IMG/VR virus record: IMGVR_UViG_3300023223_000141
Span: 1-37,187 of that record
DNA: 37,187 nucleotides
Source of the DNA: a virus
Direction: 5' to 3' (one strand)
This document shows, piece after piece, positions 4,494 through 35,546 of the stretch. The notes below the pieces were generated by a model. The model was not told where the DNA came from. It made no database searches and saw only the letters and a program-made list of their open reading frames with translations. Each line of letters starts with the position of its first letter. Positions within the stretch are counted from its first letter, which is position 1. The position numbers and the translations under genes are program-made.

Positions 4494-4819
4494 CTGATCT
4501 TAAGCCATGTCCGCATTGCGGAGAATATGGACATGCAATCGTTAGCTTCAATGATGTTTTTTGGGTTGAATGTGGATCATGTGATGCGCAAGGTCCAAGA
4601 ATAATCACAGAGAAAAGCGCCGTCGAAGCATGGAACACCAGACACACCACAAAAGCACAGATAGACGCGGCAACCCGTGCAATAAACGAGGCATTTATGG
4701 CTAAGGGGGTAATTGATTATATGCCGAATAATCTACCTAGTAACGAGCTTTATTATAGAGGTTCACTATCTGAAAGATGTTTAGCCAAAGCAGCACTAAA
4801 GGCCGCGCAAGATGTCTGA
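4490..4819 (+). CDS. Lar-like restriction alleviation Zn-ribbon protein
   Basis: This 109-residue protein begins with the Lar-type zinc ribbon: LKPCPHCG (residues 4-11), then VECGSCDAQGP (about 26-36), and AVEAWNTR (44-51). That order is characteristic of the Lar restriction-alleviation family; Rac prophage Lar modulates type I restriction. The C-terminal half (52-109) is an extra helical extension not found in minimal Lar proteins. Most phage members of this family are untested, so the restriction-alleviation role is an inference. Confidence 0.78.
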   Translation: MTDLKPCPHCGEYGHAIVSFNDVFWVECGSCDAQGPRIITEKSAVEAWNTRHTTKAQIDAATRAINEAFMAKGVIDYMPNNLPSNELYYRGSLSERCLAKAALKAAQDV

Positions 4820-5285
4820 CCTATTCAACCACACAGACCCGTTCATAGAGTTCTGGAAGGTTTACCCCCGTGCAGGAAAGAGCAACGGACGACCCGGGAA
4901 AGCTCTGGCAAAGAAACGGTTTGATGCTTTGATAAAAAGCATAGATGCTAGCGTGATCATTGAGGCAGCTAAAAGATACGCGGCTGAAAGAGAAGGCGAA
5001 GACCCTGAATTTACCATGCACGCCTCTACTTGGCTAAACAGACGCATGTTCGAAGACGAGGCACCAGCAGTCACAGCGACACGCGCAGCACCAGAGACAC
5101 CAGATGAATGGAGGCAGGTGCTAAGCAACGGCGACAAGCCGGTGTATAAATCATGGTATCGCCAGTATTGCCAGAACCACTGGCCCAACGGTGGCAAGAT
5201 CGGGCCGAACCCGTGGATTGAGTTTAACCAGTATATACCGGAGGAAATTTACAATGAATATGGAGGGATATGGTTATGGAAATAG
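4812..5285 (+). CDS. Replication-protein-like DNA-binding protein
   Basis: This 157-residue protein contains, at residues 12-80, the pattern FWKVYPRAGKS, ALAKKRFDALIK, IIEAAKRYAAE, HASTWLNRRMFED. The order FWxxYPR...A...W...STWLN...W/F-ED is typical of the C-terminal domain of phage replication initiators (O/GpO-type) and of stand-alone small proteins related to it. No N-terminal origin-binding winged helix is present. It is the only replication candidate in the genome and may recruit host helicase or primase. It overlaps the previous gene by 8 bases. Confidence 0.55.
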   Translation: MSDLFNHTDPFIEFWKVYPRAGKSNGRPGKALAKKRFDALIKSIDASVIIEAAKRYAAEREGEDPEFTMHASTWLNRRMFEDEAPAVTATRAAPETPDEWRQVLSNGDKPVYKSWYRQYCQNHWPNGGKIGPNPWIEFNQYIPEEIYNEYGGIWLWK

Positions 5286-5557: not shown

Positions 5558-5657
5558 CTTCCACCCCTACAACGACAGAGAAGAGGCAGCCAGGAAACAG
5601 TTGCGGGATGAATGGAAAAAGGAGAAGACAACATGGGTGATTGCGTCACAAAAATAA
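5550..5657 (+). CDS. Small charged protein (35 aa)
   Basis: The ATG at 5550 overlaps the upstream stop (ATGAATAA). The product is 35 residues, highly charged and helical (DREEAARKQLRDEWKKEK). It contains the ribosome site for the next gene (AAGGAG before 5633). The start position and composition favour a real small gene, but nothing about function can be read. Confidence 0.45.
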   Translation: MNNFHPYNDREEAARKQLRDEWKKEKTTWVIASQK

Positions 5658-5854
5658 AACCTGTGAGGAATGCTGTAGTCATACAGTTTTTGCCGAATGG
5701 GAAGAAAGTTGTCTGCATTGAGTGTATGGATAAAGAATGTCTTGACGACTTGGTAGCAGAAGCGCGAACTATCGACATTTTTCTGAGTATAAGTGAGAGA
5801 TGGGTAGACTATGACCTTTTGGTAAATAAACGATATAAAGATAAAACCGATTAA
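5633..5854 (+). CDS. Hypothetical protein
   Basis: This 73-residue protein starts at the ATG at 5633 (MGDCVTKIK), chosen because AAGGAG lies 8 bases upstream; an in-frame ATG at 5612 lacks one. It has three cysteines (C4, and the VCIECMDKEC segment) and a charged end. Metal binding is possible but no standard knuckle spacing is seen. No family was recognised. Confidence 0.6.
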   Translation: MGDCVTKIKPVRNAVVIQFLPNGKKVVCIECMDKECLDDLVAEARTIDIFLSISERWVDYDLLVNKRYKDKTD

Positions 5855-5866
5855 TAGGAGAATGGC

Positions 5867-6106
5867 ATGAGCGATGTAATTAAATTTGTTCCAAAAACGC
5901 CAGAAGATATTAACTATTTGGTTGATAATGATGGTGAAATAAAAGGTGTATCGGGTAAATATTTTGATATGGAATTTCTAACCGGTGGGGACGGATTTCT
6001 TTTTAATGGATCGTACATCAAACGAGAAGAGTTAATTGCTTTTGTGTTGGTGTCTGGTCTTTGGCAAGATGTCCAGGATGACGAAAAGGAGAAATCACAT
6101 GATTGA
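5867..6106 (+). CDS. Hypothetical acidic protein
   Basis: This 79-residue protein starts at an ATG preceded by AGGAG (TAGGAGAATGGC). It is acidic, with a predicted beta-rich middle (DMEFLTGGDGFLFNGSYI) and a hydrophobic helix (ELIAFVLVSGLW). It overlaps the start of the following XRE regulator gene by 8 bases, so the two are probably made together. No family was recognised. Confidence 0.6.
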   Translation: MSDVIKFVPKTPEDINYLVDNDGEIKGVSGKYFDMEFLTGGDGFLFNGSYIKREELIAFVLVSGLWQDVQDDEKEKSHD

Positions 6107-6323
6107 TAAGAGAAGCTTAGGAATAATTTTTGCATCCTACAGAAAACAAAAAAACCTCACTCAGGTGGCGCTTGCAAAACAAATTGGACTTGTACCTTCA
6201 GCTATAGCACACTTTGAGGCTGGGAGACGCGCACCTTGCCTAGAGAATTTCATAAAACTTGTTCGTGGGCTTGATATGCAAGAGGACGCTATAAAAATAC
6301 TTGACGTTGTGGTAGGCGACTAG
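6099..6323 (+). CDS. XRE-family HTH transcription regulator
   Basis: This 74-residue protein starts at the ATG at 6099, preceded by AAAAGGAG. It is a complete Cro/C1-type HTH domain: IFASYRKQKNLTQVALAKQI (residues 10-29), then VPSAIAHFEAGRRAPCLENF, with recognition helix around PSAIAHFE. There is no oligomerisation domain, so it resembles Cro or CII-sized regulators rather than a full CI repressor. It is the last gene before a 430-base non-coding region. A leftward promoter and terminator lie directly downstream and would make RNA ending at its stop codon, reminiscent of lambda cII and OOP RNA. Confidence 0.85.
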   Translation: MIDKRSLGIIFASYRKQKNLTQVALAKQIGLVPSAIAHFEAGRRAPCLENFIKLVRGLDMQEDAIKILDVVVGD

Positions 6324-6324
6324 T

Positions 6325-6418
6325 ATAAAATAATGAAGCCCCAAAGACGCTAGGCGACTCTAGGGCTCCAATATAGGATGTTACTTTGGACTGGATCATC
6401 CTAATAAATAAACAAAGG
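6325..6418 (-). ncRNA. Candidate OOP-like antisense small RNA
   Basis: A leftward promoter (TTGACT, 17 bases, TATATA; 6453-6425) would start RNA near 6418. About 50 bases on comes a GC-rich hairpin (6368-6336) followed on this strand by TTCATTATTTTATA, an intrinsic-terminator-like end at the stop codon of the XRE gene. The predicted RNA of about 95 bases also has a 5-bp GGATG/CATCC hairpin near its 5' end. In lambda, OOP RNA (about 77 nt) sits at the same kind of place, leftward at the 3' end of cII. The match is in position and architecture, not sequence. Confidence 0.45.
6336..6368 (-). terminator. Intrinsic terminator-like hairpin (leftward)
   Basis: On the minus strand, GAGCCC at 6368-6363 pairs with GGGGCTT at 6343-6337, with inner pairs AGA/TCT and CGC/GCG around a CTA loop. 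The T-rich run TTCATTATTTTATA follows. On the plus strand no U-run follows the stem, so it works as a terminator only leftward, though it could protect the 3' end of rightward mRNA. Confidence 0.5.
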
Positions 6419-6424
6419 ACTTTA

Positions 6425-6453
6425 TATATACCTTCTACTTTATTTATAGTCAA
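6425..6453 (-). promoter_or_regulatory. Leftward promoter in the 6324-6753 gap
   Basis: The minus strand reads TTGACT (6453-6448), a 17-base spacer and TATATA (6430-6425), close to the sigma70 consensus. No leftward ORF follows, only the hairpin terminator near 6336, so it should drive a short untranslated RNA. Confidence 0.55.
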
Positions 6454-6473
6454 TAAAAAACATCCCAACTGAC

Positions 6474-6735
6474 CTGATCAAACGTCATTGCACAAAACTG
6501 ATCATCTGAAGCAGCCCTTGCTTAGTAGGGTAAAACAAATGTTCCGGCAATGCTTCACCTTGTACCCGGACACCTTGGCGACAGAAATGTTGTAGGCACA
6601 AAAGGTCCAGTGAGTTGATGACTTCATTGGATGTATTAGAGCCTAAATGCTGATACGGGGACAGCCTACTACCCTGCCTTAACCGGCACCGCTTAATCAG
6701 CGGCTTGGTCTATACCAAGGGGGAAAGGGAAAGAG
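6474..6735 (+). ncRNA. Candidate structured RNA in the 430-base non-coding gap
   Basis: This stretch has no convincing ORF but many hairpins: CCCT/AGGG (6515-6530), TCCGG/CCGGA (6543-6570), CGACA-GAAA-TGTTG (6579-6592), CCGCT-TAATC-AGCGG (6689-6703) and CTTGGT-CTAT-ACCAAG (6704-6719), the last two stacked head to tail. The 6579-6592 stem contains a G-U pair and a GNRA loop only when read as plus-strand RNA, favouring that strand. Two CTGATCA copies (6474, 6498) lie at the start. It is either a structured leader of the 6754 gene, a stand-alone phage RNA, or both. No known RNA family was recognised. Confidence 0.4.
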
Positions 6736-6753
6736 CTATGAACGGAGAAGATT

Positions 6754-6999
6754 ATGAGGAATAAACAAATGAGTGACGAATGGATTTTGGCTGCGGACAG
6801 AGTAAGAATACCCATTGATGAAGAACGATATGCGATGGCTTATTGTGGGAGCCGTAAAAATGCTGCTATTGTATATGCTGCCCCCATAATGCTTGCTGCA
6901 TTAAAACGGATAGTAATTCTCGGTGAAGCAGATAACGGTGATGCAATGGAGGTTGTTATCGCTAAAAGAGCAATTCTAAAAGCGGAGATTTCCTTATGA
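6754..6999 (+). CDS. Small phage protein with AAPxMLxAL motif
   Basis: This 81-residue protein starts at the ATG at 6754 (GGAG 8 bases upstream); an in-frame ATG at 6769 (MSDEWILAADR) is also possible. It contains IVYAAPIMLAALKRI at about residues 38-52 and ends with AKRAILKAE, matching the 'AAPEMLEAL...AIAKA' family also found at 2078-2413. The function is unknown. It is the first gene after the structured non-coding region, and its TGA overlaps the next ATG. Confidence 0.65.
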   Translation: MRNKQMSDEWILAADRVRIPIDEERYAMAYCGSRKNAAIVYAAPIMLAALKRIVILGEADNGDAMEVVIAKRAILKAEISL

Positions 7000-7256
7000 A
7001 TTATCTAAGTAATAACAAAAAAATCATGTTTATGTGGGGGGTCCAACACCCAGACGGCTATATTAATTGTTGGTCTGTAAAACCAACAAGGGTTCAATCA
7101 ATGGAGTGGCTTACATCTGGTCACTATGGTGTAGACCCGTCTTCAAATTGGAGGTGGTGGTATAACCGGGGATGGAGGGCTGTCAAAGTTGAAGTTAGAT
7201 TAATGCCACACTATGCACCAATTGATAGTTGTTATCATGAAAACCTCTCATTTTAG
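6996..7256 (+). CDS. Hypothetical Trp/Tyr-rich protein
   Basis: This 86-residue protein starts by ATGA overlap with the previous gene. It is rich in aromatic residues (MWGVQHPDGYINCW, NWRWWYNRGWRAVKVEV), suggesting a compact beta domain. No family was recognised. Confidence 0.6.
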   Translation: MNYLSNNKKIMFMWGVQHPDGYINCWSVKPTRVQSMEWLTSGHYGVDPSSNWRWWYNRGWRAVKVEVRLMPHYAPIDSCYHENLSF

Positions 7257-7279
7257 AGCTATGGATAAAGGAGAGAGAG

Positions 7280-7522
7280 ATGGCTAACACAGGAACATTC
7301 TCTTTAGACGGATATCGCCAGTGGTGGTTCGAGTTGTTCGAATACGACGATCGAACACATGAAGACTACAACATAAACCACCTACCCCTTACACAGATCG
7401 TGGAGAAAGCCAGGCGAGCTGGCTACACGGTACGGCTAGAGGTAACAGAAGCACCAAAGCCCATGAACGAGGCAGAGCATAGATATTTGCAGGAAAATAA
7501 AGAAAACCCTTGCAATAAGTGA
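7280..7522 (+). CDS. Hypothetical acidic protein
   Basis: This 80-residue protein is preceded by AAAGGAGAGAG. The predicted fold is a short aromatic segment (YRQWWFELFEYDDRTHEDY) followed by a helix-strand pair (LTQIVEKARRAGYTVRLEV). No family was recognised. Codon use and operon position match its neighbours. Confidence 0.6.
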   Translation: MANTGTFSLDGYRQWWFELFEYDDRTHEDYNINHLPLTQIVEKARRAGYTVRLEVTEAPKPMNEAEHRYLQENKENPCNK

Positions 7523-7565
7523 GATATGGCTTATATTAGATAATATAGAAACAGGGAGAGAAAAC

Positions 7566-7826
7566 ATGGGTGAGATAGCAGACATGATGTTGGACGGAAC
7601 GCTTGATTGTGTCACTGGTGAATATCTTGGTGCTGATACGGGGTATCCTGTTACAACGGAGCGAGGGCATCCAAATTCTCTATATACAGAGGATGAGCGC
7701 CGGGAGATGTATGGCCCCCGTGGACAAGGAAGACGCAACAAGAAAGATCGAAATTGCCCGATTTGCAACAAGGCTGTTCGAGGTACTGAAGGTCTCAGGA
7801 TGCACACCAAAGACAGACATAATTAA
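7566..7826 (+). CDS. Zn-binding protein with C2H2-type finger
   Basis: This 86-residue protein starts at an ATG preceded by a GGGAGAG ribosome site. The N-terminus (IADMMLDGTLDCVTGEYLG) matches a common phage family that usually has CxxC here ('MLDGxxCxxCGxxL'); in this copy only one Cys remains. The C-terminus has CPICNKAVRGTEGLRMH then TKDRH, a C-x2-C-x12-H-x4-H finger. It may bind nucleic acid, but the function is unknown. The partial loss of the N-terminal Zn knuckle is the odd feature. Confidence 0.7.
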   Translation: MGEIADMMLDGTLDCVTGEYLGADTGYPVTTERGHPNSLYTEDERREMYGPRGQGRRNKKDRNCPICNKAVRGTEGLRMHTKDRHN

Positions 7827-7845
7827 ACGCCCGGAGGATATAGGG

Positions 7846-7965
7846 ATGAAAAAAGAGCACCAAAAACTGATTGAAATACTACTCACTAAAGATGAGAGCC
7901 AGATCAGGAAAGAAATTGAAGCCATGCAGATTATGAACCGTTTCAAGCAGGCAAATAAAAAGTAA
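7846..7965 (+). CDS. Small helical protein (39 aa)
   Basis: This 39-residue protein starts at the ATG at 7846, with GGAGG upstream in CCCGGAGGATATAGGG. It is entirely charged helix (IEILLTKDESQIRKEIEAMQ). A longer frame upstream overlaps the Zn-finger gene and has no ribosome site. The function is unknown. Confidence 0.5.
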   Translation: MKKEHQKLIEILLTKDESQIRKEIEAMQIMNRFKQANKK

Positions 7966-7993
7966 CACAAATGCCCTAGCAAAGGAGGATGAA

Positions 7994-8137
7994 ATGGCTA
8001 ATGAAATGGAAGTTGTAGACGAGTATTATTTTTCGTCATCTATGTACGAGGAGGATGCTATACTTTTATATCACTCGACTACGCAAGATGATCTTCAAGA
8101 GATTAATGAGACGCACGATTATGACGATGGTAATTAA
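7994..8137 (+). CDS. Very acidic small protein (47 aa)
   Basis: This 47-residue protein starts at an ATG preceded by AAAGGAGGATGAA, one of the best ribosome sites in the region. About a third of its residues are Asp or Glu and there is almost no Lys or Arg. Such charge is seen in DNA-mimic anti-restriction or anti-nuclease proteins, but 47 residues is short for one and no motif supports it. The function is unknown. Confidence 0.55.
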   Translation: MANEMEVVDEYYFSSSMYEEDAILLYHSTTQDDLQEINETHDYDDGN

Positions 8138-8193
8138 TTCATAAACAAACTCCCACAAGAGGAGACTTAACCAATGGACTAATTCCTGAGCCG

Positions 8194-8219
8194 TGTAGCA
8201 CACAAGCCCCGGTGCTACA
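8194..8219 (+). promoter_or_regulatory. 8-bp hairpin upstream of the alpha-CTD-like gene
   Basis: TGTAGCAC (8194-8201) and GTGCTACA (8212-8219) form a perfect 8-bp stem with a 10-base loop. It lies between a well-spaced GAGGAG followed by a two-codon ATG GAC TAA ORF (ATG at 8174) and the real start at 8245. There is no T-run, so it is more likely an mRNA structure than a terminator. Confidence 0.5.
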
Positions 8220-8244
8220 TACTGAGAAATTAGAGGAGGATAGA

Positions 8245-8589
8245 ATGGACGACAGACAATTACATAAAAACATCCGTAAGGCGGTTGGTGACTTTAACGA
8301 GGCCCACAGGTTAATGGGGCAAGCCTATGCAAGAATGACCATGTTGAGGGATAAGCTATTTTCCCCTCCATATGTATCAAATGATGATATCCCGTTTGAT
8401 TGCCTTGATCTAACCACAAGGGCAAAGTATTGCATAAAAAACCATGGCATTGAAACTTGGGGCGGCGTTGCAGCACTAACAAAGAAAGAATGGTTAAGGG
8501 TTCCAAACTGCGGGAAGGGAACTGTTGATACTATTGAGGCGGCTTTATGTTTGCGGGGATGGAAATTCAAGGATAATGCCAATGACTAA
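8245..8589 (+). CDS. RNA polymerase alpha-CTD-like helix-hairpin-helix protein
   Basis: This 114-residue protein starts at the ATG at 8245, chosen because GAGGAGG lies just upstream. Residues 50-105 match the C-terminal domain of the RNA polymerase alpha subunit: LDLTTRAKYCIKNHGIETWG, ALTKKEWLRVPNCGKGT, VDTIEAAL. The order parallels bacterial alpha ('LSVRAxNCLKxxxIxTIGDLVxLxExELLxxxNxGKKSLxEI'). Residues 1-45 form a separate charged helix and the alpha N-terminal domain is absent. Alpha-CTD binds UP elements and activators, so a free copy could compete for or bridge such contacts, but plain DNA binding is equally possible. Confidence 0.75.
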   Translation: MDDRQLHKNIRKAVGDFNEAHRLMGQAYARMTMLRDKLFSPPYVSNDDIPFDCLDLTTRAKYCIKNHGIETWGGVAALTKKEWLRVPNCGKGTVDTIEAALCLRGWKFKDNAND

Positions 8590-8629
8590 ATACCGTGGAT
8601 ACACAATAGATATGTTGGAGGATGAGTGA
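8582..8629 (+). CDS. Possible 15-aa coupled peptide
   Basis: An ATG overlapping the previous stop (ATGACTAA) opens a 15-codon ORF (MTKYRGYTIDMLEDE) whose TGA overlaps the next ATG at 8629. It fills the gap between two genes exactly, as a reinitiation relay would. It could equally be a decayed gene or chance. Confidence 0.3.
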   Translation: MTKYRGYTIDMLEDE

Positions 8630-8790
8630 TGGCTAATAGATTTGCGACAAAAAAAGAATTTGAGCGCAGGTTAAGAGAGAATGTGGCTAAGTCATCAAAG
8701 GAACAAAATCTGTCTGCTGAAGACGAAGAAAAGGTCTATGTCGCAGCGTGTGCGTCGTTAAGAATTTCACCTAACAAGGAGGATGATTAG
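8629..8790 (+). CDS. Small charged helical protein (53 aa)
   Basis: This 53-residue protein starts at the ATG at 8629, preceded by TTGGAGGATGAG. It is charged and helical (KKEFERRLRENVAKSSKEQ) and ends KEDD. No family was recognised. Its last codons contain an AAGGAGG. Confidence 0.5.
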   Translation: MANRFATKKEFERRLRENVAKSSKEQNLSAEDEEKVYVAACASLRISPNKEDD

Positions 8791-8826
8791 TATTATGTGT
8801 TGGTGTGTATCAGCGAACGCGTTTAA

Positions 8827-12922: not shown

Positions 12923-14918
12923 GAAAAAGAAAAGTACCGGCCCTGATTTTATGGCTGTGCGTGAGTCACTAAGCAAGGCACAGAACGCAGAAGAAAAACA
13001 ACGTGAAGAAGCTACCGAAGATTTCAACTTTGCCTTTGCTGACAAAAACCAGTGGGACAAGACCGCAATCGCATTAAGGGGCGATAGGCCTAGATACACA
13101 GTAAACAAGCTTAGAATACCGCTCCTGCAGCTAGTTGGGGAAGTACGCCAGAATGATATTTCAATCAAGGTGAGGGCAACAGGTGGTGGCGCTACGGAGG
13201 AAGTCGCTAACACATTCCAGGGATTAATCAGAAACACAGAAAACGTATCGAACGCCAAGGATGCATACTGTAACGCCTTTCTCTATTCCAGTTCAGCTGG
13301 CTTTGGTGCATGGCGCATAACGACAGAGTTTGAAGAAGACAGTTTTGACCAGTCGGCCAAGATTAAAAAGATTGATAGTCCTTTATCGAGTGTTTACTTT
13401 GACCCTGACGCCACCGAATATGACAAGAGGGACGGTCATTTTGCTTGGATAATTTCCCAGATGACCCTTGAGGAATTCAAAAGGAAATACCCTAAAGCCA
13501 AAGCAAGTTCCATTGATTTGAATATGAACGATCCTAAGCCAAACTTTTGGTCGGACAAGGAAACTGTAAGGGTTGCTGAATACTGGTATAAAGTTCACAC
13601 ACCAATAGAATATATCAAGATGTCCAATGGCAAGGTTTACTCCAGTGACAAACTTGCTGACGTGACAGATGAACTTGCACTCGCTGGTGTAACTGAAGTA
13701 GAGCGTAGAGACGGCGTTAAAACTAATGTATTTCAGCAAGAAATGTCTGGTGCTGAATTCCTCACAGACCCAAAACCGTTTCCGTCTAAGTTCATTCCTA
13801 TTATTCCTTGTTACGGATTGGATTTTTACACAGAAGGCCAGCATTCATACTCTGGTCTGGTCAGGGTGGCGCGTGACCCCCAAAGAATTTACAACTATAT
13901 TGTTACCACGTTAGTGGAAACCACAGCCCTCACACCAAAAGACCCTATTTTCATCACAGCGGACCAGATGGCGGGATTTGAGAAAGATTACACTAACTTT
14001 AACAATCGTCCTTTGCCGTTTATGAGATATAATGCTGATCCTAAAACTAAAGCACCTCCTTATAAGGTTGGTGCTCCTTCCGTCCAGGCCGAACTATCAA
14101 ACCAGTCCTTTAAGATGGAGGGTGATATTCAGCAAACACTAGGCCGTACTGGTCAGAGCGTTGGTGATGATCCCAGTGTAAGATCAGGCCGGGCAGTGAT
14201 GGCGCTACAGAACCAGGCAGACAGCGCCAGCTTTCTCTATATGGATAATCTATCCAGGTCGGTTCAGTACACTGGTGAAATACTAGTAGATATGTATCCA
14301 CGCTTTATCGACGCCGGCCAACAGGAACGGATTATAAAACCTGACGGGCAAGAAGAATTTGTAACAATTAACGAAGAAACTACAGACAGTCAAACCGGCA
14401 AGAAGGTTATACTTAATGATATTATGCAGGGTAAATATGATGTTAGTGTTGATACCGGCCCTTCCTTCCAAACCAAACGAACTGAAGCCCTTAATTTCCT
14501 CACCACACTCGCACAGGCTAACCCGTTGGTTAATGAGTTGGCGGCGGATTTAATCGCCAAGAATGCTGATTTTCCTCAGGCGGAAGAGCTTGCCGCAAGG
14601 TTAAGGAAAGTAGGGATTTCTCAAGGCTTCATAGAACCCAATGAAGAAGAACAGCGAGAACTAGAAGAAAACGCACCGCCGCCTGATCCATTACAACAGG
14701 AACTAGCAGCACAGAACATGATTACTCTTCAACTTGCCAATGAGAAGAGTGCCGCTGAAGTTGATATTCTGGTCAAAGAACTTGAAAAGCTTGATGTTGA
14801 AATAGAAAATATACGGAGTGAAACAAGAGAGAATTTAGCTGATGCCGATAAGACAGAGGCTGAAACGACAGAGACAGTTGTAAAAACCACACAGTCATTG
14901 ATTAACGGCAACCAATAG
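12915..14918 (+). CDS. P22-like portal protein
   Basis: This 667-residue protein matches the P22 portal family (P22 gp1 is 725 aa). Recognisable blocks are DRPRYTVNKLRIPLLQLVGE (about 57-76), VRQNDISIKV, the SAGFGAWRITTE region, and SVYFDPDATEYDKRDG. The C-terminal part (about 560-667) is a long charged helix like the P22 portal barrel. It forms the dodecameric ring at one capsid vertex through which DNA enters and leaves. The start is a TTG overlapping the terminase stop by 8 bases, with CAGGAGAA upstream. Confidence 0.92.
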   Translation: MHKKKKSTGPDFMAVRESLSKAQNAEEKQREEATEDFNFAFADKNQWDKTAIALRGDRPRYTVNKLRIPLLQLVGEVRQNDISIKVRATGGGATEEVANTFQGLIRNTENVSNAKDAYCNAFLYSSSAGFGAWRITTEFEEDSFDQSAKIKKIDSPLSSVYFDPDATEYDKRDGHFAWIISQMTLEEFKRKYPKAKASSIDLNMNDPKPNFWSDKETVRVAEYWYKVHTPIEYIKMSNGKVYSSDKLADVTDELALAGVTEVERRDGVKTNVFQQEMSGAEFLTDPKPFPSKFIPIIPCYGLDFYTEGQHSYSGLVRVARDPQRIYNYIVTTLVETTALTPKDPIFITADQMAGFEKDYTNFNNRPLPFMRYNADPKTKAPPYKVGAPSVQAELSNQSFKMEGDIQQTLGRTGQSVGDDPSVRSGRAVMALQNQADSASFLYMDNLSRSVQYTGEILVDMYPRFIDAGQQERIIKPDGQEEFVTINEETTDSQTGKKVILNDIMQGKYDVSVDTGPSFQTKRTEALNFLTTLAQANPLVNELAADLIAKNADFPQAEELAARLRKVGISQGFIEPNEEEQRELEENAPPPDPLQQELAAQNMITLQLANEKSAAEVDILVKELEKLDVEIENIRSETRENLADADKTEAETTETVVKTTQSLINGNQ

Positions 14919-14928
14919 GAGTAGTAAT

Positions 14929-15237
14929 ATGGCCCATACAACAGGGCGCAGACCCACAAAAACAACTTCGAGATTAAGGAGGCCCATTGGGAAGCGAGCA
15001 GTTCAATCCACCAAAGCAAAGCGTGCTGTTGGCAAAAAGAAGTCGTTGGCCGTACCGGGGCAAAAGAGTAGAACGGGACCCAGCTTTGCATCTAAGCTTG
15101 GTGTAAAAAAAGCTTCAGCAGGAACTCCTAAACGAAGACCTACCACCCCTACCCGCTCTACGGGTAGACCGGCGCGTACCAGTAGACGGCCTGTTGGTGC
15201 AAGGGCTAGGCCAGCCGCAGGGCGTGGCCGTAGATAG
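14929..15237 (+). CDS. Very basic, low-complexity protein between portal and scaffold
   Basis: This 102-residue protein is about one third Lys and Arg, with Thr, Pro, Ser and Gly making up most of the rest and only two acidic-free stretches; no Asp or Glu is seen. Runs such as KRAVGKKKSLAVPGQKSR and RPARTSRRPVGARARPAAGRGRR resemble histone H1 tails or protamine-like peptides. It has a good ribosome site (AGGAG). It lies between portal and scaffold genes, so it may be a virion or procapsid protein that binds DNA. No homologous family was recognised. Confidence 0.75.
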   Translation: MAHTTGRRPTKTTSRLRRPIGKRAVQSTKAKRAVGKKKSLAVPGQKSRTGPSFASKLGVKKASAGTPKRRPTTPTRSTGRPARTSRRPVGARARPAAGRGRR

Positions 15238-26712: not shown

Positions 26713-27945
26713 ATGACTATTACATCACCACCAGGCGGCGACGCATTAACTGGCACTAATCTAACCGAAGCCGCTATCCCGCAAATATCTGGCGGAAAAC
26801 TGATTGACTCTGGTATGAGAGTACTTTCTGACGGTACTATTCAAAGTGATAAGTCAATCGAACTTCCTAATAATTCCTTAGATTTTGCTGATGTCATTAC
26901 TCTATCGGAAGGGACAAGTTCAATTATTCTTCGTGATAAAATTAATGACAAAAATAGCACTGGAATTATGAGCGTATTTACGAATTCTGGTTCTCAAAAT
27001 CCTTCTTATTTCAAACTTGCTGCGCAAACAAATTTCGTTGTTAATTCAGATTTCAGTCAAAATCTCACAGCAAACCCACTTACATTCCAACTCACTGCCG
27101 TCAATGATGCACAGGTGAATGTGCTACATTTCAAAACTGGTTCTGCCATGACGAATGTTCGCATCAGAGTTGCTGATAATGCCACCGGCATTGTTCTTCG
27201 TTATTTGCCAAGTAAAGCAACATGGAATTCAGACACTGGTGGTTTTTCCTTTGTCTCTGGGGATAATATCATTGATCTCATTAGTGTTGCTGCAGATACC
27301 CCCGGCGTGATTAATCTAGGCGTTACACCATTCCGCTTCACTTCTACTGAACTTCTGGACATCGAAATTCGGGCCGATACTGTTGATCTTTTAGGTGAAA
27401 GTGGCGGCATCCCCTTCCTGAATGTTGATGATCAGATTGGTGTTGATACAACCGTCCTGGAAACAGAAACTCTTGTTGCGGAAAGCTTTGATGCAAATGA
27501 CGTTATTTACCCTCCTGTTAATCCTGCCGTTGCATCATCGAGGAATGGTCATCCTATCATCTCATTTGACGATACAGTAGCAGAGAATGTGACACGAAAG
27601 TTAACCGTATCTTCAAATTATAGTAACACAGATATTTCAGTAGACATTGACTGGGTAGCTGAAACTGCCACGACAGGCGGTGTTACTTGGGGTGTTGAAT
27701 TTGAGCGTAAGGCACCCGGCGGCACAGATATTGATTTGGATTCATTTGCCGCGCAAAAAACCGGAACCAGCACAACCAACGGAACTAGCGGGATTATCAC
27801 TCGAACCACCATTATATTAACTCAGGCTGAGGCAGATGCAATTCAAGCCTTAGATTCATACAGAATTAGGTTGCAAAGAGTTGTCGGCGATGTGGGGGAT
27901 GATATGATAGGTGATGCACAAGTCCTTAAAGCGGGAGTGCGGTAA
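26713..27945 (+). CDS. Tail fibre-like protein 3
   Basis: This 410-residue protein starts at ATG 26713 after GAAAGG. Its N-terminus (SPPGGDALTGTNLTEAAIPQ) carries GGD like the tags at 24278 and 25457 but lacks the IFP part. Long stretches of alternating Ser, Thr, Asn and hydrophobic residues predict an extended beta structure. The C-terminus (SYRIRLQRVVGDVGDDMIGDAQVLKAGVR) resembles the closing jelly-roll strands of phage fibre domains. It is inferred to be a tail fibre or receptor-binding part. Confidence 0.6.
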   Translation: MTITSPPGGDALTGTNLTEAAIPQISGGKLIDSGMRVLSDGTIQSDKSIELPNNSLDFADVITLSEGTSSIILRDKINDKNSTGIMSVFTNSGSQNPSYFKLAAQTNFVVNSDFSQNLTANPLTFQLTAVNDAQVNVLHFKTGSAMTNVRIRVADNATGIVLRYLPSKATWNSDTGGFSFVSGDNIIDLISVAADTPGVINLGVTPFRFTSTELLDIEIRADTVDLLGESGGIPFLNVDDQIGVDTTVLETETLVAESFDANDVIYPPVNPAVASSRNGHPIISFDDTVAENVTRKLTVSSNYSNTDISVDIDWVAETATTGGVTWGVEFERKAPGGTDIDLDSFAAQKTGTSTTNGTSGIITRTTIILTQAEADAIQALDSYRIRLQRVVGDVGDDMIGDAQVLKAGVR

Positions 27946-32399: not shown

Positions 32400-32871
32400 T
32401 TGGCGGGAACAATGATTTGTTTAAAGGATAAAAACTTGTTCCCACCTCTCAATCGAGAATGGCATAACCAGCCATTAAACCCCATTGCGAAAGGCCGTGA
32501 AGCCGTGTCCCGGGGGGTGGTCCATGATAATATAACCATGTGAGTTGTTGGGGCGTTTGCGCAGACTGGTACTCTGTCATTCGCCTCAATCAACGTAAGC
32601 TCATTATTGCTTTTTATTATACAAACGTCAAGTCTTGAAAGAATTTACAGAATAATATAGTATACGCTTGATTATAGAGTTTGTGTGCGGCATGGCGGCT
32701 ATTGAGCAACCAACAAAATGCTGAGCAATGCAGGGTGGAGCGCCCTGCCATACAAATATTGTTTAGAGGTGGGAATGGCCTCCCCACGCACCAGAAATGG
32801 TATAGTAGCTTAAACAGCGAAGAGATCAAGGAACAGGGCAGCCTTGCTAAATGATTAAAGGAGAGACACAA
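32400..32871 (+). other. Non-coding gap with multiple hairpins and a promoter
   Basis: No ORF here has a ribosome site. Hairpins include GGGAACAA/TTGTTCCC (8 bp, 32405-32443), AATGGC/GCCATT (32458-32476), GCAGGG/CCCTGC (32730-32748) and GTGGG/CCCAC (32769-32787). A promoter lies at 32634-32661. The endolysin 3' end could be terminated or processed here, and the promoter's transcript begins with a structured leader of about 200 bases before the ATG at 32872. No known RNA family was recognised. Confidence 0.55.
32634..32661 (+). promoter_or_regulatory. Rightward promoter for the second lysis operon
   Basis: CTTGA (32634), TTTACAGAA (32644-32652) and TATAGT (32656-32661) occur at exactly the same offsets as in the early promoter at 2772-2799. 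Transcription should start near 32668 and read through the 32872-34844 genes. Confidence 0.6.
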
Positions 32872-34920: not shown

Positions 34921-35286
34921 GTCTTCGCGTATTCTCAGGTAAAACCCAAGCTCACCAACATAGCGCTGGTAAATACGTGTAAGCATTTCTGAGAACTCTT
35001 CTGTTGTTAGCTTAGATGTCTGCTTTGTCCACACTTCTCTACCCATTGTAACATGAACTTTAGACGGGCAAAACTCATCCCTAAATAAATTCTCCATTTC
35101 ATTCTTGCTGTGTCCTGTAGCGTTAGACATATCCTCGGCCCACATGTGGAAGGTGCTGTTTTGAGTTATTGTGCGGCTGTTTTTCTTTTTACGCCATTCA
35201 ATGACCCAAGCATGTTTGCAGTCAAGTGCAATAATTTTGTTAGCAATGCCGCGCAGGTCTTCTGGATTTCTGGCCGTCTGTTTCAT
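34915..35286 (-). CDS. NinB-like recombination protein
   Basis: This 123-residue protein resembles lambda NinB/YbcN: SRTITQNSTFHMWAEDMS (about 37-54) parallels 'RSLxQNxxLWxxLxDVS', and TSKLTTEEFSEMLTRIYQ (near 90-107) parallels 'TSxMxxxEFAELLELI'. NinB (Orf) takes part in recombination mediator functions, helping load annealing or RecA-type proteins. As the last gene of the ERF operon it fits. Overall identity is low, so this is a motif-based call. Confidence 0.6.
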   Translation of the reverse strand: MKQTARNPEDLRGIANKIIALDCKHAWVIEWRKKKNSRTITQNSTFHMWAEDMSNATGHSKNEMENLFRDEFCPSKVHVTMGREVWTKQTSKLTTEEFSEMLTRIYQRYVGELGFYLRIREDL

Positions 35287-35546
35287 AGCTCACCTTGGCA
35301 ATGTGGACATACTTCCCGCTTGTTAGTCGTCCTGCCCAGTGGCGTTAGTATAATGTTTCTGCTGCCACCTTTGGCCCATTCACGCATTAAATACCCACGT
35401 TCAATCAGTCCGTTGACCAAGCGGAAGATATTTGCTTTTGATTTATGCCCAGTGTATGCCATGATTTCCTCATAGCTTGGGCTGTATCGCTTTTCTTGCA
35501 GCGTATCGCAGATGAAGGCGAATACCTCTTGTTGTTTAGGTGTCAT
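35283..35546 (-). CDS. LexA-type winged-helix protein with Zn knuckle
   Basis: This 87-residue protein matches the LexA N-terminal DNA-binding domain: MTPKQQEVFAFICDTLQE, YSPSYEEIMAYTGHKSKANI, FRLVNGLIERGYLMRE. It lacks the S24 peptidase domain, so it cannot be self-cleaved by RecA. The C-terminus adds a CPHC knuckle (residues 82-85). It probably regulates phage or SOS-type genes. Its ATG lies inside the end of the upstream small Zn gene, and it overlaps the NinB-like gene by 4 bases. Confidence 0.8.
   Translation of the reverse strand: MTPKQQEVFAFICDTLQEKRYSPSYEEIMAYTGHKSKANIFRLVNGLIERGYLMREWAKGGSRNIILTPLGRTTNKREVCPHCQGEL

Follow-up and report, generated by a model that had tools for sequence, protein, structure and literature searches.

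A candidate antisense small RNA beside the XRE regulator gene of an uncultured P22-like phage

The stretch of DNA analysed here, referred to as the window, corresponds to positions 1 to 37,187 of the IMG/VR virus record IMGVR_UViG_3300023223_000141. A 144-base direct repeat is present at the ends of this 37,187-base record, and the sequence is therefore probably one full turn of a closed circle. The late genes belong to the P22 type and include a portal (phrog_156), a coat protein (phrog_283), a scaffold, a gp10-like head closure protein and a DNA transfer protein. No record similar to the window was recovered in a DNA-level search of the phage collection, and the portal shares no more than 35% identity with any portal in that collection. 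Between 2808 and 34844, every called gene is oriented rightward, in the order RusA, a Lar-like protein, an O-like replication fragment, the XRE gene, small unknown genes and the late genes. The gene for the ERF recombinase is located on the left-pointing side of the window. No CI-like repressor or integrase was identified among the scanned proteins, which were a subset of all ORFs.

Several other segments of the genome deserve mention in their own right. Two proteins, encoded at 4812-5285 on the plus strand and 35283-35546 on the minus strand, match positions 177-262 and 45-110, respectively, of phrog_270, which is one replication initiation family, as if the initiator had been divided between two operons. 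The leftward operon also encodes a YopX-family phage protein (35703-36077, minus strand; PF09643, E 1.6e-19). A charged ORF of at least 359 aa, probably a coiled-coil protein, occupies positions 1-1078 on the minus strand and reaches the junction of the record, beyond which another, separate minus-strand ORF follows in the circle. At 8212-8589 on the plus strand, the genome encodes a phage protein of 125 aa that contains a C-terminal domain of the RNA polymerase alpha type (PF03118, E 2.9e-8); it has no PHROG match and no relative was found in phage records or IMG/VR, and such a phage-borne domain could redirect transcription of the host. Finally, a skipping-rope RNA (RF02924; 54.7 bits against a gathering score of 36.7) is located at 32759-32854 on the plus strand, in a 451-bp gap 3' of the gene for an endolysin-like M15 peptidase.

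The XRE gene ends with a stop codon at 6321-6323 and is followed by a spacer, in which a small RNA is predicted on the minus strand (Table 1). A distance of 329 nt separates the -10 hexamer of the leftward promoter from the next gene, whose start is at 6754, and no ant-like ORF starts near 6420. Because all called genes between 2808 and 34844 point right, a rightward transcript across the spacer is plausible, and the small RNA is a perfect complement of such a transcript directly 3' of XRE.

Table 1. Positions of the genes and sequence features at the XRE locus of the window.
Feature	Position	Strand	Basis and remarks
XRE regulator, 74 aa, single HTH_3 domain	6099..6323	+	PF01381, E 1.2e-10; SD-like AGGAG upstream
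Promoter-like TTGACG-17-TATAAA	6301..6329	+	PWM rank 9/74,322; no other support
Spacer, 430 bp, no recognisable gene, contains the small RNA	6324..6753	+	No family match for a hidden protein
T-rich tail ATTATTTTA	6325..6333	-	Sequence; interrupted by an A
Predicted small RNA, ~93 nt	~6418/6419 to 6326	-	Ends inferred to within a few nt from promoter and terminator positions
GC-rich terminator hairpin	6334..6370	-	Hairpin scan, shuffles, strand comparison
5' stem-loop	6374..6403	-	Fold; perfect 7-bp stem UAGGAUG/CAUCCUA, 16-nt loop
-10 hexamer TATATA	6425..6430	-	Sequence; spacer of 17 nt; no T at -7
-35 hexamer TTGACT	6448..6453	-	Sequence; PWM 9.8 jointly with the -10 hexamer

The most exceptional of these features is the terminator hairpin. 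With a folding energy of -25.8 kcal/mol, it is the strongest combination of hairpin and T-tail in a scan of both strands of the window, and 72 dinucleotide-shuffled versions of the genome all fell short of this value (best shuffle -24.5). Folding of the same hairpin separately for each strand yielded -25.8 kcal/mol for the minus-strand RNA and -12.3 kcal/mol for the plus-strand RNA, three G-U pairs of the minus-strand hairpin being A-C mismatches in the plus strand. This preference suggests that the minus-strand RNA is the functional one. The small RNA as a whole (94 nt in this computation) folds at -32.1 kcal/mol, with a z-score of about -5 (-5.3) that was equalled by none of 200 shuffles; the same computation yielded z-scores of -3.9 for lambda oop, -5.7 for P22 oop and -5.3 for P22 sar. 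Only two tiles in the region 5600-8800 had z-scores below -4, and both are located at the small RNA locus on the minus strand. The tail of the terminator scored 3.0-3.5; that of lambda oop scored 4.4 and that of P22 oop 3.4. A search of Rfam at the locus produced sub-threshold noise alone.

The promoter is less exceptional. It ranks 29th by PWM score among 74,322 sites in the window, and shuffled genomes contained 21-38 sites with scores as high, compared with 29 in the window; by itself, the leftward promoter is at chance level. Its score of 9.8 lies between 10.1 for the oop promoter of lambda and 9.1 for that of P22, on a matrix that may not fit the sigma factor of the host, and a stock promoter scanner did not include the site 6453-6425 in its list. 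The initial annotation, made from the sequence alone, had called this a good promoter. The two hexamers and their 17-nt spacing are indeed present and score like real oop promoters, but the term was overstated given the missing T at -7 and the chance-level score. The layout that it described, with a promoter followed by a GC-rich hairpin and a T-rich tail on the minus strand, was confirmed, and no genome shuffle matched the hairpin. Likewise, an RNA of about 95 bases ending at the XRE stop codon agrees with our estimate of about 93 nt and a 3' end at about 6326, beside the stop codon, although the XRE coding sequence is not overlapped. The statement that no ORF lies in between needs to be modified, since a 59-aa minus-strand frame with a TTG start (6468-6289) and an internal ATG crosses the small RNA region. 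A family search of the frames in the spacer for a hidden protein, this frame included, gave no match.

To calibrate these observations, we applied one set of thresholds for promoter, hairpin, tail and distance to the window, P22, Sf6 and shuffled windows. The thresholds were chosen with the window already seen, and the scan is thus a calibration and not a blind test. Exactly one cassette was recovered in the window, namely the small RNA locus. P22 yielded two cassettes, oop and the late leader RNA, and Sf6 also yielded two, the late leader and one that is unannotated, so that three of the four correspond to known RNAs (P22 oop and both late leaders). The remaining Sf6 (L166) cassette is a promoter-terminator pair at 26984-27077 on the plus strand, just upstream of the right operator. 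Any cassette at all was found in 4 of the 60 shuffled windows, under looser thresholds, which together with the chance-level promoter is what could be expected if an A+T-rich promoter-like stretch happened to lie next to an inverted repeat. Such a coincidence is nevertheless very improbable in view of the hairpin, which was not reached in the 72 shuffles, and of its strand asymmetry. The combination of promoter and terminator weighs more than either part. From the strength of the hairpin, the oop-like score of the promoter and the cassette scan, it is likely that the small RNA gene is real; it would be ordinary in kind and new as an instance.

If the hairpin alone were real, it would be an ordinary terminator that blocks antisense transcription. 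The locus would then consist of a bare leftward terminator that shields the rightward early genes from antisense transcripts, with either no discrete small RNA or an RNA of about 420 nt starting from about 6745. That the hairpin is far above chance and the promoter at 6453 is not fits such a terminator, as does a further promoter-like site at 6779-6751. However, the minus strand 5' of the small RNA (6425-6744) contains no extra structure (z -0.1), and a 5' stem-loop followed by a terminator looks like known phage small RNAs. We consider a bare terminator unlikely, while giving it real weight.

Another explanation involves the promoter-like site at 6301-6329, which could start a separate rightward leader RNA near 6336. 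The small RNA would cover the first 80 nt of this leader and control the gene at 6754 rather than XRE, in the manner of RNAI/RNAII or CopA/CopT. This site outranks the leftward promoter, transcription from it would begin where the small RNA has its 3' end, and the spacer is long (430 nt). On the other hand, its -10 hexamer also lacks a T at -7 and may be no more than a by-product of the A+T-rich terminator tail, the plus strand of the spacer has no unusual structure as a leader or as a long RNA (z -1.2 to -1.4), and the protein encoded at 6754 belongs to no known family. Control of such a separate leader is in our estimate decidedly unlikely.

The small RNA might also act mainly in trans on other mRNAs of the phage or host and not as an antisense RNA at its own locus. 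It overlaps no called coding sequence, and other sequences could pair with its free 5' tail and its 16-nt loop, but no translation start in the phage exceeds the pairing obtained with shuffled RNA by more than about 2 s.d., and we regard a primarily trans-acting role as improbable.

We also searched for relatives that keep the region of XRE and the spacer, and none were found in the phage collection, IMG/VR or cellular genomes, from which records very close to the window may be missing. The best identities in IMG/VR were at most 41% for the portal and 48% for the terminase, and the contigs with a related portal or terminase contained no match to XRE or the spacer. A scan of IMG/VR for the exact hairpin pattern recovered nothing. 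Relatives of the XRE protein in cellular genomes were at most 51% identical, with no comparable antisense hairpin at the equivalent place.

The reading that we tentatively prefer, at somewhat short of an even chance, is that the locus encodes a new phage antisense RNA, non-homologous to those known, that is directed against the transcript 3' of XRE and lowers the level of the regulator by pairing and RNase III. Transcription would start leftward near 6418 and yield an RNA of about 93 nt that folds into two hairpins and ends at the strong one, just past the XRE stop codon. We infer that pairing downstream of XRE would create a target for RNase III and that the mRNA would be cut there, which would make the XRE message shorter-lived and uncouple it from the downstream genes. 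By analogy, the net effect would be a lowered regulator, comparable to the action of OOP on cII and of sar on ant. The action of OOP on cII depends on RNase III (PMC5869508, PMC12197685).

A broader version of this proposal is that the RNA is independent of both OOP and sar, having arisen by convergent evolution in a P22-like phage without a recognised CI/CII module, where it would exert antisense control over a solitary XRE regulator with one domain, encoded in the middle of the early operon. We hold this broader version to be unlikely. To our knowledge, antisense small RNAs beside regulators have been characterised in just a few model phages. If real, the small RNA described here would be a case from an uncultured phage without sequence kinship to OOP and would suggest a repeated origin of antisense control over early regulators. 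A calibrated scan that combines promoter, hairpin energy, tail and strand asymmetry could reveal more such genes in uncultured phages.

For the comparison with OOP, 11 oop loci from lambda and P22-like phages were measured by one common script. The sequence features of the oop-type layout, that is, a leftward promoter, a 5' stem-loop, a terminator and an RNA of roughly 60-100 nt opposite the transcript of a small HTH regulator, were all found in the window. The OOP RNAs of lambda and the P22 group are 63-80 nt long, leftward, and consist of a 5' stem-loop and a terminator, as does the longer RNA of the window. As with OOP, a small HTH regulator on the opposite strand adjoins the RNA, and the promoter scores are alike. 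Local alignment of the window RNA with P22-group oop revealed the shared segments TGATCCAGTC and GGGGCTT. For SEN22, Sf6 and BTP1 oop, none of 1000 shuffles and none of 1350 window tiles aligned as well, Sf6 oop was the best of 1948 Sf6 tiles in three of four gap settings, and only 0-13 of 544 terminator-matched segments were as good as P22-group oop. Yet this similarity varied with gap costs and query length, and it was weak or absent for the oop sequences of lambda, HK629, Ehr49 and RCIP0114. The unrelated sar RNA was as similar to the window RNA as oop was. Profile searches gave E 5 with nhmmer, and 5.7-6.1 bits (cmsearch E 8-10) with an oop covariance model that found better chance matches elsewhere in the window and that assigned 65.8 bits to GZ7 oop, which had been excluded from the model. 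The local similarity was thus not accepted as proof of descent from OOP.

The surroundings of the RNA also differ from those of oop, contrary to the claim of the initial annotation that the arrangement is the same as for lambda OOP. A terminator could be called in 10 of the oop loci (not in GZ7), and in 9 of these it lies 34-48 nt inside cII or c1 (35-48 nt in lambda and P22); lambda OOP overlaps cII by 52 nt (PMC5869508). The stem in the window, by contrast, ends 11 nt past the XRE stop. In the tenth of these oop loci, that of Klebsiella phage RCIP0114, CII is short and the hairpin is located 21 nt past its stop, and non-overlap by itself therefore does not disqualify the window RNA. Ten of the 11 oop loci, all except that of Sf6, have a LexA-like site (CTG-N10-CAG) at the RNA start; the window RNA has none. 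The distance from the -10 hexamer to the next start codon is 3-7 nt in oop loci, with overlap in lambda and P22, as opposed to 329 nt. The O gene adjoins oop in the replication module, whereas the O-like gene of the window (4812-5285) is located upstream and not downstream of the small RNA. The XRE protein matches HTH_3, HTH_31 and HTH_19 but not Phage_CII (PF05269), a family that P22 c1 and two short Klebsiella CIIs did match in the same profile library. What stands of the OOP-like interpretation is a leftward small RNA feature beside XRE; it may possibly act like OOP, but the sequence comparisons do not support membership in the OOP family. The part in a lysis or lysogeny switch that the initial annotation suggested would be a conjectural one.

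Among plasmid systems, the window RNA may be likened to ColE1 RNAI/RNAII or IncFII CopA/CopT. If the promoter at 6301-6329 is real, the RNA would, like these, lie opposite the first part of a leader transcribed the other way; unlike in these, no replication gene or known leader follows that promoter.

For the layout beside the regulator, P22 sar is a closer geometric parallel than OOP. Sar is about 70 nt and the window RNA about 93 nt, and both are leftward, with a 5' stem-loop ahead of a strong terminator hairpin. Both terminator stems end in ...GGGGCUUCA and are followed by a poor U tail, and the fold z-scores are alike (-5.3 for sar and about -5 for the window RNA). The regulator is Arc in one case and an HTH_3 protein in the other, and sar extends to the start of ant, whose translation it blocks, whereas the window RNA misses the ribosome site of the next gene, more than 300 nt away. 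The 3' end of sar (15021-15090) is located within the stop codon of arc (14861-15022), and that of the window RNA, at about 6326, is similarly placed beside the XRE stop codon.
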